NCBI RefSeq assembly: GCF_003443655.1
Contig: NZ_CP031941.1
Location: forward strand, 5,144,501 to 5,208,500
DNA: 64,000 nucleotides
Direction: 5' to 3'
From: Nostoc sphaeroides
GTDB lineage: Bacteria; Cyanobacteriota; Cyanobacteriia; Cyanobacteriales; Nostocaceae
Shown here: positions 3,325 through 63,242 of the stretch, piece by piece
Numbering within the stretch: position 1 is the first letter of the stretch
Layout of the letters: each line of letters starts with the position of its first letter
Program-made: the position numbers and the translations under genes
The notes under the pieces: generated by a model
What the model was told of the DNA's origin: nothing
What the model saw: only the letters and a program-made list of their open reading frames with translations
The model's database searches: none

Positions 3325-3972
3325 TCAAATCGTGGAATCAGCACTCAGATGCTTGTGCAATAACATTTGGCTTGAGCGTCTTAGGAAAAATGTATTCCAA
3401 CTCGATTCGACTTTATGTACCCGATATCCCAGTTTGAAATAAAGTTGCCTTGCTTGATGATTATTTTCCAAAACGTGGAGATATAAGTCTTGAAATCCCC
3501 AGTTGCAAGAAACTTTCTCACAGCTAGTCAGTAAACCTGAAGCCACACCATGTCTACGGTATTGTGGGTGAACTGCTAAATTAGATAAGTAAGGAAAACC
3601 CGTGCCAACCTGGCTCCACGAATCACTGTAACGTACACCCAGTTCTACACTTCCCACTAGGTTATTAGCCGCACCAGTAGTAGTTTCAAAAGCGACTAAA
3701 CAAATATGACGTGACGGAGGTGATGCCATGCGATGCCTTAAGTCTTCGTAAATACCGAGACGTAGCAGTGGAAAAGCCCATCCCCACAGACCCTGTTGGG
3801 TGTGAAAGCTTTCGGCAATAATTTGAGAGACACCGATCAAATCAGCTGGTGTAGCTGTACGAATTTGAAATTGGCAGCAAGCTGGATTGATTGGCTGTTG
3901 CTGGTATGGATGAAAAAACCGATATTTCAAGGCTAGTTTAGTATTGATTTTATTCAACGAAAATTTACTCAA
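3325..3972 (-). CDS. GNAT-family N-acetyltransferase
   Basis: A 215-residue acyl-CoA-dependent acetyltransferase. The GNAT fold runs from about residue 36 (IRTATPADLIGVSQIIAESF) to 195. Motif A with the acetyl-CoA loop is AVHPQYRRHGVASGLL near residue 132, followed by LHVLENNHQARQLYFKLGY near residue 163, typical of motif B. The ~35-residue N-terminal extension is not part of the fold, so a later start is possible. It resembles the plastid/cyanobacterial GNAT group, but the acceptor substrate cannot be read from the sequence. It stands alone. Confidence 0.85.
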   Translation of the reverse strand: MSKFSLNKINTKLALKYRFFHPYQQQPINPACCQFQIRTATPADLIGVSQIIAESFHTQQGLWGWAFPLLRLGIYEDLRHRMASPPSRHICLVAFETTTGAANNLVGSVELGVRYSDSWSQVGTGFPYLSNLAVHPQYRRHGVASGLLTSCEKVSCNWGFQDLYLHVLENNHQARQLYFKLGYRVHKVESSWNTFFLRRSSQMLLHKHLSADSTI

Positions 3973-10188: not shown

Positions 10189-10259
10189 GCGGGCGTAGTT
10201 TAGTGGTAAAACTATAGCCTTCCAAGCTATTAATGCGGGTTCGATTCCCGCCGCCCGCT
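10189..10259 (+). tRNA. tRNA-Gly (TCC)
   Basis: Complete cloverleaf of 71 nt: acceptor GCGGGCG/CGCCCGC, D-arm with AGTTTAGTGGTAAAACT, anticodon loop CTTCCAA giving anticodon TCC, T-arm GCGGGTTCGATTCCCGC. The 3' CCA is not encoded. It lies on the plus strand just after the TonB-like gene and may be read from its own promoter. Confidence 0.95.
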
Positions 10260-60152: not shown

Positions 60153-60477
60153 GCCGATTTTTGCCAAGTGAATTTTGAGAAATAATACTATCTATATTGG
60201 CAAAAATTAGGACACTTTTTTGTATCTTTTGGCAAAGTTGCCGGCAAAACCTTTCCTTGGTGAGTGTTATAACCTTTTGAATCTGCAACTTATCTAAGAT
60301 TGGTCTGCGATGCCTACGGCGGTAAAGTACGCACAAAAGTTTTTACCCAGAGAAAAAGAAGGTTTTTAACTCAACTAACAACTCTATAAATTTAAATAGT
60401 CAGTCCCTTGACAACAGATAATACATATACTACATTAATAATACAAGTCAACTTTCATCAGGAGTTAACCTGCGCCA
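60153..60477. other. Gap upstream of the Y-RNA array
   Basis: AT-rich, 325 bases, between the divergent membrane-protein gene and the first tRNA-like RNA. It likely has the promoter of the RNA array. A short dispersed word (GCGATGCCTACGGCGG) is at 60306. No gene. Confidence 0.5.
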
Positions 60478-60608
60478 GTAGCGGATAGCTCAAATGACAG
60501 AGCGCCCACCTTGCCCGGAAAGGCCGACGTATCAAGGGTTATCGTATATAACTTAAACACCCTCGATCAAACTTCTGGAGGTGTAGGTAAAAATCCTACT
60601 TCGCTACA
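60478..60608 (+). ncRNA. tRNA-like Y RNA 1 (divergent)
   Basis: Acceptor stem GTAGCGG pairs with TCGCTAC (ends 60607). A D-arm-like ATAGCTCAAATGACAGAGC follows, and a T-arm-like GTAGG/CCTAC stem with a non-standard loop (TAAAAAT) precedes the acceptor. In between is the Y module CCTTGCCCGGAAAGGCCGACG ... AAGGGTTATCG (given in parts; 60507-60544). Unlike RNAs 2-4 it lacks the upstream CATCCTT strand; its AAGGGT can pair instead with ACCCTCGAT further 3'. No anticodon arm and no encoded CCA. Linked to the Ro gene downstream. Confidence 0.75.
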
Positions 60609-60661
60609 GCAAATTCAGTGCTGAGTCACAAATTTTAAATGTTTAACTCATAACTTTATAT

Positions 60662-60791
60662 GTGGTGGGTAGCTCAGTGGATAGAGCGCCTAAATATCCT
60701 TATTCATACCTTGCCTGAAAAGGCCGACGAATCGAGGGTTATCGCCTGCCAAGCGGGAGGTCGCGGGTTCAATTCCCGCTCCACTACACCA
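60662..60791 (+). ncRNA. tRNA-like Y RNA 2
   Basis: Acceptor GTGGTGG/CCACTAC, D-arm TAGCTCAGTGGATAGAGC, T-arm GCGGGTTCAATTCCCGC and an encoded CCA (60789-60791). Between D-arm and T-arm, a 50-base insertion carries ATCCTTATTCATACCTTGCC, AAGGCCGACGAAT and AGGGTTATCG, the Ro-binding Y module. A relic of an anticodon loop (CTGCCAA, as in tRNA-Gly GCC) remains, but its 5' stem is replaced. It cannot fold as a normal tRNA. It should be matured like a tRNA and bind Ro. Confidence 0.85.
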
Positions 60792-60825
60792 ATTGAGTAC
60801 TGAATCCTGAGTAGAAACTCAAGAG

Positions 60826-60884
60826 TGAGAAGTTTTAAATATTTAACTCTTAACTCTTAACTCCTAACTCTTAACTCCTAACTT
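60826..60884. repeat. TAACTCT/TAACTCC heptamer array between Y RNAs
   Basis: About eight TAACTCT or TAACTCC units in the spacer between RNA 2 and RNA 3. Confidence 0.85.
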
Positions 60885-60889
60885 TATAT

Positions 60890-61016
60890 GTGGCGGGTAG
60901 CTCAGAGGTAGAGCGCTAAACATCCTTTTTCATACCTTGCCTGCAAAGGCCGACGAATTAGGGTTATCGAATAGGGTTCGAGAGGTCGCGGGTTCAAATC
61001 CCGCTCCGCTACACCA
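60890..61016 (+). ncRNA. tRNA-like Y RNA 3
   Basis: Acceptor GTGGCGG/CCGCTAC, D-arm TAGCTCAGAGGTAGAGC, variable AGGTC, T-arm GCGGGTTCAAATCCCGC, encoded CCA (61014-61016). The Y module is CATCCTTTTTCATACCTTGC, AAAGGCCGACGAATTAGGG and TTATCG (60921-60969). No recognisable anticodon loop is left (AATAGGGTTCGAG follows the module). TTC pairs with GAA and CCT with AGG across the module, giving the expected interrupted stem. Confidence 0.87.
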
Positions 61017-61100
61017 AAATAATTTTAGATTTTAGATTCAATCCAAAATCTAAAATCGCTCGACTGAGCGTAGCCGAAGTCCAAAATCCAAAATTTTCAT

Positions 61101-61228
61101 GTGGCAGATAGCTCAGTTGGTAGAGCGCCGAAAAACATCCTTGTTCACACCTTGCCTGAAAAGGCCGACGAATTAGGGTTATCGCCTCTTAAGCCGGATG
61201 TCGCAGGTTCGATTCCTGCTCTGCCACC
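61101..61228 (+). ncRNA. tRNA-like Y RNA 4
   Basis: Perfect acceptor GTGGCAG/CTGCCAC, D-arm TAGCTCAGTTGGTAGAGC, T-arm GCAGGTTCGATTCCTGC. The region CTCTTAAG-CCGGATGTC is that of a tRNA-Lys (CTT) anticodon 3' half, so this RNA looks derived from tRNA-Lys. The Y module (61136-61184) replaces the 5' half of the anticodon arm. CCA is not encoded, unlike RNAs 2 and 3. It ends about 36 bases before the Ro start codon. Confidence 0.87.
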
Positions 61229-61262
61229 TTTCATTTTTGCCCGCAAGGGCCGGGAGATGAAA
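61229..61262 (+). promoter_or_regulatory. Hairpin in the Ro leader over the ribosome binding site
   Basis: TTTCAT and ATGAAA pair at the base, GCCC and GGGC close a GCAA tetraloop (GNRA type). The Shine-Dalgarno-like GGGAG (61252-61256) is in the internal loop, nine bases from the ATG. The text TTGCCCGCAAGGGCCGGGAG resembles the start of the Y module (TTGCCTGAAAAGGCCGACG), so Ro might bind its own mRNA; this is inference. Confidence 0.5.
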
Positions 61263-61264
61263 CG

Positions 61265-62866
61265 ATGAATTACAATTTTTTCACTAAAAAGAAAACAACT
61301 ACATCTCAAAATCAACCTATCCCCGGACGAGAAGCAGAAATGGTTCAGGGACGTTCCGGTGGTTGGATGTTCAATGCTGGCATTTGGAAAATGCTGCGCC
61401 GTTGTCTTTTAGTTGGCACAGCAAAAAGCACTTACTACGCTGGTAAACAGGAATTAACTGAGGATTTTGTAACAGTTGTCAGAAAAGCTGTTGCCGAAAA
61501 TCCCAGCCGTGTAGCGGAAGAAATTTTGTATGCTAGCGATGGACGCGCCATCAATAACAGTGCTACTATATTAGCTTTGGTACTGCTATCGATGGGTGAA
61601 GCACCAGAAGCAAAACAGGCATTTGGTGAAATCTTCCCGCAAATTGTCCGCACTGGTAGCCACTTCTACGAATGGTTGAACTACACCAAATCTCTGCGGG
61701 GATTTGGCAAAGTAGTACGGGAAGCTGGTAAAACTTGGCTCTCAAGGGAAGATGTCAAGGGTTTAGCTTATCAACTGTTGAAATATCAACAGCGTCAAGG
61801 CTTCTCGAATCGAGATGCGTTGCGGTTGTTCCATGTTAAACCGCCTACAGAAAATCACCGTCAACTATTTGAGTGGGTAGTTAGAGGCTGGGAAGAATTG
61901 CCAGCAGACATCCCCTCAGAGGCATTGGCGCAGATTTGGTGGTATGAGTGGCTCAAGCGGAATCCCACCCAAACCCATGAAGCTATTTCCCAAGGACGCT
62001 TAACTCACGAAATGGCTGCACCAGTGGGCAAAATGGACAAGCTTGCTTGGCAACTGCTATTTCAGGAAATGCCAATAGGTGCAATGTTACGTAACTTGGG
62101 TTCTTTAACTGAATTGGGTGTGTTACGAACTGATGAAAACGCTAATTTGCTCCAAGTAGAAGCAGTTCTTAATCGCAGAGAACATCTGCGTAAAGGTCGC
62201 ATTCATCCGATTGATGTTTTGAAAGCACTCAAAACCTATCAATCTGGTGGAACATTAGGACGCAGTAAGAAAACTTGGAACCCAGTTCCTCGGATTGTAG
62301 ACATATTAGAAAAGGCGGTTGAACTGTCTTTTGATGTTGTGCAACCCACAGGTAAAGTATTCATGCACGCCGTAGACGTTTCTGGTTCTATGGGTAACTC
62401 GGTTGCAGATATGGGACTGACTTGTTGTGAAATTGCCACCACAATGGCACTGGTGACAGCAAAAGCAGAGAAAAACTACATGATTCGCGGCTTTGCTACC
62501 GAATTCCGTGAATTGGGTATTACCGCCAAAGATAGTTTTAGTTCTGCGGTTCGCAAAGCTAGCAATCAAAACTTCGGTGGAACTGATGCATCCGTAGCTT
62601 ATGACTGGATGATTAAGAATAAGTTTAAAGCAGATGTAGTCTGCTTTTGGACTGACTCGGAAAGCTGGGCTGGATATAAGCATCCAAGTCAAGCGCTGAA
62701 GGAGTACCGCAAAAAGGTAAATCCTAACGTCAAGGCGGTGTATGTCACCTTGACACCTTACCAAATTACTTTGGTAGATCCTGAAGATTCGCTATCTTGG
62801 GATTTGGCAGGGTTCGACCCAGGTACGCCTCGGATCATCCAGATGCTAGCTACGGGTGAATTGTAG
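61265..62866 (+). CDS. rsr: Ro60 orthologue: TROVE-vWA RNA-binding protein
   Basis: A 533-residue ring-shaped RNA chaperone. The TROVE HEAT-like repeats cover residues about 20-360 (LRRCLLVGTAKSTYYAGKQ, AEEILYASDGRAINNSATILALVLLS, KLAWQLLFQEMPIGAMLRNLGSLTELG). The vWA domain (about 362-530) has the MIDAS motif DVSGSMGNS (D371) and NFGGTDAS. In Deinococcus, Ro binds Y RNAs and with PNPase handles rRNA decay and stress survival. Here five tRNA-like Y RNAs flank the gene. No RtcB or RtcA gene is within the window. Length matches bacterial Ro. Confidence 0.95.
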   Translation: MNYNFFTKKKTTTSQNQPIPGREAEMVQGRSGGWMFNAGIWKMLRRCLLVGTAKSTYYAGKQELTEDFVTVVRKAVAENPSRVAEEILYASDGRAINNSATILALVLLSMGEAPEAKQAFGEIFPQIVRTGSHFYEWLNYTKSLRGFGKVVREAGKTWLSREDVKGLAYQLLKYQQRQGFSNRDALRLFHVKPPTENHRQLFEWVVRGWEELPADIPSEALAQIWWYEWLKRNPTQTHEAISQGRLTHEMAAPVGKMDKLAWQLLFQEMPIGAMLRNLGSLTELGVLRTDENANLLQVEAVLNRREHLRKGRIHPIDVLKALKTYQSGGTLGRSKKTWNPVPRIVDILEKAVELSFDVVQPTGKVFMHAVDVSGSMGNSVADMGLTCCEIATTMALVTAKAEKNYMIRGFATEFRELGITAKDSFSSAVRKASNQNFGGTDASVAYDWMIKNKFKADVVCFWTDSESWAGYKHPSQALKEYRKKVNPNVKAVYVTLTPYQITLVDPEDSLSWDLAGFDPGTPRIIQMLATGEL

Positions 62867-62914
62867 ATATTGCTGAAGGGTAAAGGATGAAACACTTTAT
62901 CCTTCATACGTCAT
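62867..62914. other. Short gap between Ro and Y RNA 5
   Basis: 48 bases with the imperfect stem AAAGGATGAAACACTTTATCCTT (62882-62904), possibly a terminator-like hairpin of the Ro mRNA. RNA 5 may be made by processing of the same transcript. Confidence 0.4.
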
Positions 62915-63023
62915 GGCGGGTTATCCTTGTTCGCAACTTGCCTTTCGGGGCCGAAGAATTTAAGGTTATCGGTTACGTCTCCACCATTGTGGGGATTAGC
63001 GGGTTCAATCCCCGCACCCGCCT
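62915..63023 (+). ncRNA. tRNA-like Y RNA 5 (no D-arm)
   Basis: Perfect 7-bp acceptor GGCGGGT/ACCCGCC and a canonical T-arm GCGGGTTCAATCCCCGC, but no D-arm: the Y module follows the acceptor strand directly (TATCCTTGTTCGCAACTTGCC, then GGGGCCGAAGAAT and TTAAGGTTATCG in parts; 62922-62971). CCTT pairs perfectly with AAGG and TTC with GAA. A short stem TCTCCACCATTGTGGGGA sits in place of the anticodon arm. CCA is not encoded. The only Y RNA gene downstream of Ro. Confidence 0.82.
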
Positions 63024-63242
63024 TTGTTTGATTTTTACCTGACGCAAAGAAGAAGGCGATTTAATTTAGGACTTACGCGAACTCTACGATTCTTGGCGTT
63101 CTTGGCGTCTTGGCGGTTCGATAAATTAAGCTTTTTAGCACTTTTTGCGTAAGTCCTATAATTTTCGTAATTAGTAGGTTGGGTTGAGGAACGAAACCCA
63201 AGATTACCCATGACAACACTCGATGTTAATGTTGGGTTCTCA
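63024..63242. repeat. Repeat-rich intergenic DNA
   Basis: TTCTTGGCGTTCTTGGCG (63093 on) is the inverse of the GCCAAGAACGCCAAG repeat at 48480. From 63175 there is a GTTGGGTTGAGGAACGAAACCC repeat, half of which also occurs at 26890. No gene. Confidence 0.7.

Follow-up and report, generated by a model that had tools for sequence, protein, structure and literature searches.

The window examined here, a 64,000-nucleotide (nt) stretch of the Nostoc sphaeroides contig NZ_CP031941.1, contains a Ro60 gene (ro60) accompanied by five short RNA units in which a Y RNA module is built into the body of a tRNA. The reading that we favor, with a probability of about 0.72, is that these units encode noncoding RNAs to which Ro60 binds, each a tRNA incorporating a Y hairpin, and that the RNAs serve as tRNA mimics and not as decoding tRNAs. 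The finding is a real and unusual one, an un-permuted and tRNA-framed class of Y RNA, related to the known tRNA-like Y RNAs. All coordinates are positions in the window, and the units and ro60 all lie on the + strand.

A Ro60 gene flanked by five Y RNA-tRNA chimeras

The five Y cores lie at about 60522, 60722, 60948, 61163 and 62949, with four units upstream of ro60 and one downstream (Table 1). The units are 109 to 131 nt long, their boundaries being set by comparison with related units, and each has an acceptor stem of 7 to 8 pairs, a T arm and a Y module; a D arm is present in four of the five. The pattern GGCCGA-N5-9-AGGGTTATCG matched the 6.68-Mb genome four times, always within the array, and the reversed control gave no match. 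The product of ro60 carries the domains PF25045 vWA_Ro60 (130.5 bits) and PF05731 TROVE (64.8 bits) and matched Deinococcus radiodurans Rsr (2nvo, E 3.3e-74, residues 23-532 of 533) and Xenopus Ro60 (1yvp, E 1.5e-71, residues 12-526 of 533). Judged by its domains and by these matches to Rsr and Ro60 structures over nearly its whole length, the gene at 61265-62866 is a true Ro60. A preliminary description of this DNA had proposed five chimeras of Y RNA and tRNA beside a Ro60 gene. The chimeras and their number held up; the single architecture assumed for all five did not, as three designs, here called types I, II and III, were found.

That a tRNA search would miss or misreport these genes had been foreseen correctly. 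ARAGORN detected none of the five units, its sole match in the window being a tRNA-Gly at 10189-10259, and the Rfam tRNA model RF00005 reached its cut-off for unit 3 alone (40.2 bits). An Rfam scan of the array gave no above-cut-off match as Y RNA or YrlA. Matches to a tmRNA end, tRNA-Sec, antisense plastid-ycf2, whalefall and a CRISPR repeat, all below cut-off, were rejected; the tmRNA match scored 23.1 bits against a cut-off of 47 and covered mostly the T-arm end. Because ARAGORN and the Rfam models largely miss chimera genes, bacterial Ro60 particles are probably under-annotated. At another locus (L033), a tRNA-Asn(gtt) called by ARAGORN at 3427-3499 falls inside a chimera, an example of misannotation.

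Table 1. Features of the Ro60 region and related elements (window positions unless a locus is named)
Feature	Position	Strand	Support
Promoter-like site TTGACA-17-TACATT, possible array start (weak)	60408..60436	+	10/12 matches
Unit 1, type II chimera: acceptor, D arm, lower Y hairpin, Y core, downstream-closing upper Y helix, T arm	60478..60608	+	comparison, RNAalifold
Unit 2, type I chimera; anticodon-like loop CUGCCAA 60746-60752; CCA after acceptor	60662..60788	+	127.8 bits
Unit 3, type I chimera; anticodon-like loop AUAGGGU 60971-60977; CCA after acceptor	60890..61013	+	123.9 bits
Unit 4, type I chimera; anticodon-like loop CUCUUAA 61186-61192	61101..61228	+	125.9 bits
ro60 mRNA leader hairpin, like the lower half of the Y stem, around the GGAG ribosome-binding site	61229..61262	+	-14.7 kcal/mol, z -2.72
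Ro60 protein (TROVE ring and vWA domain), 533 aa	61265..62866	+	domain and structure matches
Unit 5, type III chimera: acceptor, Y module replacing D arm, variable hairpin, T arm	62915..63023	+	comparison
Met-like tRNA with insertion	L209 149-315	-	
Met-like tRNA with insertion	L210 139-305		
Met-like tRNA with insertion	L212 151-317	-	

Architecture of the three types

In the type I units (units 2 to 4), the acceptor strand is followed by the D arm, the first Y strand, a tetraloop, the GGCCGA..GGGUUAUCG strand, an anticodon-like stem-loop, the variable loop and the T arm. The Y hairpin interrupts the 5' strand of the anticodon stem, approximately between positions 28 and 29, and adds about 50 nt to it; the end of the module (..UAUCG) forms the new 5' strand of a short stem that carries a 7-nt anticodon-like loop. 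In unit 4, the third inner pair of this stem is a C-C mismatch, and CCG and CGG can pair at the stem base. Unit 1 (type II) closes its lower Y helix upstream and its upper Y helix downstream, while unit 5 (type III) has the Y module where the D arm would be and no D arm. The earlier proposal that the module replaces the 5' half of the anticodon arm thus has to be revised: in copies 2 to 4 it is inserted within that strand, copy 1 has another strand order, and in copy 5 the D arm is what the module replaces.

These designs recurred in related loci. A search of 148 genomes of the same order for Ro60 identified 33 carriers, of which 30 loci were read, and a parser that looks for an acceptor, a D arm, a Y core and a T arm yielded 100 candidate units, weak ones counted. 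An alignment of 40 type I units from 28 loci, three of its rows coming from the window, was used to build a covariance model (R1); its rows were chosen by a parser that demands acceptor pairing and, for 37 of the 40, pairing of the inner anticodon stem as well. Among these pre-sorted rows, the core strand paired better upstream in 38 of 40, with one tie and one row without a core, and among 23 pre-sorted type II rows it paired better downstream in 22. RNAalifold recovered the acceptor, D, lower Y, upper Y and T helices of type II. Among 23 other loci scanned, 15 have the type III design on the downstream side of ro60; L012 shows another design.

Comparative support for the fold

Without a given structure, RNAalifold recovered from the 40 type I units the acceptor, the D arm, both Y helices, two mini-anticodon pairs and the T arm; 22 of the 31 pairs showed both-side changes. 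In the proposed structure, 95.6% of 1477 pair cells were paired. The variety of the pairs is the stronger point: both-side changes were seen in 24 of 37 pairs and 209 cells, compared with 16.8 and 56 in shuffled alignments and at most 14 and 40 in slid versions of the structure. None of 500 shuffles reached the observed value on four of five covariation measures; on the fifth, further pair types, the alignment was not above the shuffles (127/500 reached it). Both-side changes were present in every helix class, and the closing pair of the anticodon-like loop was C-G in 19 units, A-U in 12, U-A in 4 and G-C in 3. The outer and inner anticodon pairs were paired in 87.5% and 92.5% of cells, respectively.

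The Ro-binding helix with its bulged C and GGUUAUC strand was likewise retained, 93 to 94% of cells in the Y helices being paired, and C64, G65 and TTAT at 78-81 (numbering of the first row) were invariant. Searching with R1 gave 185 matches, the best 150 of which were aligned to the model; 34 of these are identical to rows of the type I alignment. After removal of two rows gapped in the acceptor, the acceptor strands paired perfectly within the unit in 142 of 148. By comparison, the 3' acceptor strand of a unit paired with the 5' strand of the next unit in 15 of 84 cases, and with its own partner in 82 of the same 84. CCA stands near the end of 74 of the 148 units, and three loci hold a single unit (L018, L025 and L027), as does L019 at a contig end; that 11 loci have one unit among the best 150 matches reflects the limit of that set. 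Collectively, the comparative data show that each unit is predicted to fold as one tRNA body carrying a conserved Ro-binding helix with a bulged C.

Occurrence with Ro60 across genomes

Among the matches listed, R1 matched 31 of the 33 Ro60 carriers and none of the 115 non-carriers of the order. Twenty-eight of the matching carriers had supplied the model, and the other three (G090, G091 and G107) matched as well. The worst carrier among the matches listed had an E value of 2.4e-17 and the best non-carrier 1.3e-8, the E limit being chosen post hoc, after this gap was visible. The best non-carrier matches were mostly tRNAs of 73 to 75 nt, scoring up to 55.2 bits, and none of seven that were inspected held a Y core: four were ordinary tRNAs or pairs of tRNAs and three were a Met-like tRNA with another insertion.

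Across 386 genomes of the phylum, a set overlapping the 148 genomes of the order, units were found in 31 of 37 Ro60 carriers and in none of 349 others, 21 of the 31 lying outside the model. The Ro60 match in G094 and G042 spans 65 residues only and no units accompany it (L120, L121); that of G094 lies near a contig end. G204 counted as negative in this tally, yet weaker units were found there. G163, G179 and G239 gave no strict unit match, and their Ro60 is 33 to 35% identical; by eye, the first two carry linear Y RNAs and G239 carries YrlA-like RNAs, which scored 26.4 and 25.5 bits with Rfam. Units adjoin ro60 except in G107, where matches and ro60 sit on different contigs. To judge from these matches, the unit set occurs only with Ro60 in the genomes searched, and its distribution among Ro60 carriers together with the pair covariation argues that the units are not a product of chance.

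Relation to YrlA and linear Y RNAs

YrlA (RF02553) opens with a Y strand and the T arm, continues with an acceptor that a short loop closes, and finishes with the D arm and a Y strand. YrlA and the window units have in common a Ro60-adjacent Y module on a tRNA body with a D arm, a T arm and an acceptor-like stem. Type I units differ: they begin and end with the acceptor strands, a tetraloop caps the Y hairpin and the tRNA parts follow one another un-permuted. The window units are not YrlA, whose tRNA parts stand in permuted order and whose model had no match in the 6.68-Mb genome and none in 60470-63040 up to an E value of 10; they are its un-permuted counterpart. In the portions available of the sources, a bacterial Y RNA structure (6CU1) is reported to match tRNA in superposition once circular permutation is allowed for (PMC11472068), 6CU1 is named as Salmonella YrlA, and YrlA is reported to be modified by DusA and TruB (both PMC8394870).

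In two cyanobacteria the YrlA model matched across the junction of neighboring units, at 31.0 bits (E 0.0088; L037 3614-3744, PCC 7002) and 29.1 bits (E 0.032; L038, PCC 73109), against a cut-off of 69. Such junction matches are expected if tandem arrays can yield permuted genes, a hint and nothing more. YrlA-like RNAs of two actinophages also fell under this cut-off (42.2 and 39.3 bits), and in these loci (L041 and L044) a short anticodon-like stem-loop was seen by eye right after the GGUUAYC strand. The YrlA-like and un-permuted forms look as if they had one insertion site in common. In the phage of L044, Mycobacterium phage prophiGD43A-5, a deposited tRNA-Thr(tgt) at 1696-1774 beside the Ro gene overlaps the sub-threshold YrlA match at 1718-1817 (39.3 bits) and is probably a YrlA-like RNA.

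Vertebrate Y RNAs carry a GGCCGA ... GGUUAUC strand opposite a CUUG strand with a bulged C, and linear Y RNAs, both the vertebrate forms and that of Deinococcus, share this motif with the window units. Linear Y RNAs have no tRNA body, and their Ro-binding stem is made by pairing of the RNA's own ends. The window units differ in both respects, their ends forming the acceptor stem and their Y stem being closed by a tetraloop. Linear-looking forms were seen by eye in L117, L118 and L028. The nematode stem-bulge RNA model RF01656 scored 37.4 bits, against a cut-off of 38, on the linear Y RNAs of L117 (4531-4596 and 4671-4736).

The resemblance to tRNA extends to the acceptor, D and T arms, U33 and purine 37 in the loop, and CCA; the units depart from tRNA in the insertion of about 50 nt in the anticodon stem, in their unusual anticodons, in escaping ARAGORN and in their presumed binding to Ro60. 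Laboratory tRNA scaffolds graft a foreign hairpin in the anticodon arm of a tRNA body. The window units, in contrast, are natural and conserved and retain the anticodon loop. No settled role for the tRNA-like portion of YrlA emerged from the literature reached, and the permuted order of YrlA is puzzling. The un-permuted form, present in the laboratory cyanobacterium Picosynechococcus sp. PCC 7002 (plasmid pAQ7, NC_010474.1, about 163021-163425, minus strand) and in several other phyla, is a plausible evolutionary source of YrlA, and in these units a Y RNA may be matured by RNase P and CCA addition.

In the literature searched we found no account of Y RNAs that are un-permuted and framed as tRNAs, although earlier publication is possible and priority uncertain. 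None appeared in the portions available of PMC7790460, PMC8394870, PMC9569102, PMC4726728, PMC11472068, PMC7824862, PMC8058203, PMC11277228 and PMC10272220, and a term search of PMC5966550 returned no passage.

A constrained and variable anticodon-like loop

Half of the model-aligned units (75 of 150) have 19 to 20 nt between the module and the T arm, and 58 of these 75 show, at a fixed index, a stem of three pairs that closes a loop of 7 nt, with 23 different triplets; unit 4 scored as unpaired at this index. U33 was present in 56 of the 58 parsed loops and a purine at position 37 in 55, and positions 31 and 39 paired in 69 of 75, compared with a shuffle maximum of 48. Loops differed within 14 of the 15 arrays having at least two parsed. 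This comparison indicates that the loops are under constraint. No anticodon-like loop with U33 and purine 37 was seen in types II and III. A34 occurred in 13 of the 58 loops, and one loop reads UCA. To our knowledge, A34 is hardly used by bacterial tRNAs outside tRNA-Arg(ACG), and these triplets therefore speak against decoding and for display of tRNA-like features.

Ro60 loci of other lineages

Ten Ro60 query proteins were used to collect loci of other lineages, and the best 80 of 448 (L129-L208) were examined. The sample comes mainly from Chloroflexi, Armatimonadota, Verrucomicrobia and others, and it includes two loci of the cyanobacterial phylum (L129 and L130). R1 gave 37 matches above 56 bits, a limit again set post hoc, in 28 of the 80 loci, one of them in a cyanobacterial metagenome-assembled genome (MAG). 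Twenty of the 37 were inspected, and a few of the remainder are 184 to 205 nt long and perhaps not clean units. The inspected matches include textbook un-permuted units, one from Desulfonema magnum (L143 2977-3108) and one from Limnoglobus roseus (L197 1802-1924). Sorting of 180 Y cores, made without a null control, gave 50 linear, 47 permuted and 18 un-permuted forms, with 65 left unresolved by the parser. Anticodon loops were found in 7 of the 18 un-permuted (0.4 expected) and 14 of the 47 permuted forms (1.1 expected), most forms having none. Up to nine strict Y cores occurred in one of the 80 loci; several copies per Ro60 gene are common, and the copy number in the window, earlier thought unusual, is not. 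Among the arrays listed, several held two kinds of Y RNA side by side, linear with un-permuted in L132, L142 and L151 and linear with permuted in L145.

Many of these ro60 genes lie among tRNA genes. The 664 kb around the 80 genes hold 325 tRNA genes, 324 of them co-oriented with ro60, and, counting those away from Y cores, 29 of the 80 loci have three or more tRNA genes near ro60 and 15 have ten or more. This share of Ro60 loci in tRNA arrays may not be general, because the query by which the loci were ranked, L116 (on a contig shared with L129), itself sits in a tRNA array. In the 51 cyanobacterial Ro60 loci ARAGORN found two tRNAs in total, and in two longer stretches from two genomes (L123 and L124) ordinary tRNAs are interleaved with units. 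L116, from a basal cyanobacterial MAG, combines 25 ARAGORN tRNAs and a chimera of 69.5 bits around one Ro60 gene, together with a YrlA match below threshold (38.4 bits) and what looks by eye like a linear Y RNA.

Proposed function and alternative explanations

We propose that the array would be transcribed together with ro60, that RNase P and 3' processing would release the units as tRNA-like RNAs, and that Ro60 would bind the Y hairpin and stabilize them. The tRNA body with its varied anticodon-like loops would then be the effector part, docking tRNA-binding proteins on Ro60, and the RNAs may act as bait for, or sensors of, the enzymes by which tRNA is cut, modified or degraded under stress. 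Ro60 often stands among tRNA genes elsewhere and A34 occurs in 13 of 58 loops; the units are therefore better taken as tRNA mimics than as decoding tRNAs. Retained and varied loops suggest a job, the presentation of tRNA features to a partner on Ro60, and for YrlA competitive inhibition of an anticodon nuclease is suggested in the available part of PMC7790460. With constrained, diverse loops and tRNA arrays, a mimic or bait role is an attractive possibility.

Several observations weigh against this interpretation. The paired percentage of the type I structure is inflated by parser selection, and the type I rows are related, so their counts overstate independence. Single-sequence folds of the units are modestly better than shuffles (z -1.3 to -2.65), and minimum-energy folds lack the Y part that we propose for units 1 and 5, the anticodon stem of unit 2 and the upper Y helix of unit 4. 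Seventeen of the 75 units with suitable spacing lack a three-pair stem at the fixed index, 7 of the 13 A34 loops are a single triplet, AGG, in related genomes, and PADLOC gave no match for the window Ro60. In addition, tethering of PNPase by a Y RNA, described in the portions available of PMC8394870 and PMC8058203, is a precedent for another role.

On that precedent, the tRNA body may, as in the model for the Deinococcus Y RNA, fix Ro60 to PNPase or another exonuclease and gate its substrates, the loops being functionless relics. This is a tentative possibility that merits serious attention: the Y RNA in RYPER tethers Rsr to PNPase (available parts of PMC7790460, PMC8394870 and PMC8058203), and in types II, III and some other units no anticodon loop could be parsed. 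Against it, relics would be expected to drift, but U33, purine 37 and the 31-39 pair are kept at the frequencies given above while the triplet varies. It is unlikely that the Y hairpin is an intron, excised with Ro60 and an RNA ligase such as RtcB to leave ordinary tRNAs. With the module removed, the anticodon stem of many type I units would have five pairs, and three Ro60-negative genomes carry a Met-like tRNA in which a different insertion, of about 90 nt, occupies almost the same position; types II and III, however, cannot yield a tRNA by excision, the A34 loops and the UCA loop stand against the idea, and we know of no bacterial splicing endonuclease for such a site. The intron reading was rejected on types II and III and the A34 loops.

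Very improbable is a YrlA frame, in which the true RNAs span neighbors and join the Y core and T arm of one unit to the D arm and Y strand of the next. The junction matches in PCC 7002 and PCC 73109 that favor it are far under cut-off, loci with one unit only exist, the window genome has no YrlA match, and acceptor pairing within units (142/148), against 15/84 across them, led us to reject it. We give hardly any credence to decaying tRNA pseudogenes or a mobile repeat. Tandem copies, tRNA-like sequence and the tRNAs interleaved in L123 and L124 would fit; covariation, with both-side changes in every helix class, and the strict dependence on Ro60 contradict it. Beyond the mimic reading lies a broader scenario that we consider doubtful, in which Ro60 systems arise in tRNA arrays through the entry of a Ro-binding hairpin into a tRNA gene, tandem chimeras shift their ends to give YrlA, the panel of loops forms a bait or sensor held by Ro60, and a leader hairpin limits Ro60 synthesis.

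Leader hairpin and other features

The ro60 leader hairpin has the tip GCCC-GCAA-GGGC followed by a two-base bulge and resembles the lower Y stem. It was visible by eye in 47 of 50 ro60 leaders (L007-L095), and 37 of the 50 were aligned; L025, L028 and L029 among the 13 omitted lack the hairpin and the other ten have it. In the alignment, four pairs were kept in 92.4% of cells with 13 both-side changes, compared with 4.0 in shuffles, while the number of pairs with both-side changes (2) and of further pair types (4) was not above shuffles. Autoregulation of Ro60 through this hairpin is possible, as a guess. A promoter scan of the array region returned 5 sites of the kind listed in Table 1 against 4.7 expected by chance and was thus not above chance.

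The three Ro60-negative genomes with the Met-like tRNA (G083, G041 and G117) belong to one family, and the insertion of about 90 nt in this tRNA lies in the 5' strand of the anticodon stem. The insertion contains a repeated hairpin-like motif and no Y core, and ARAGORN reported none and Rfam one of the three.

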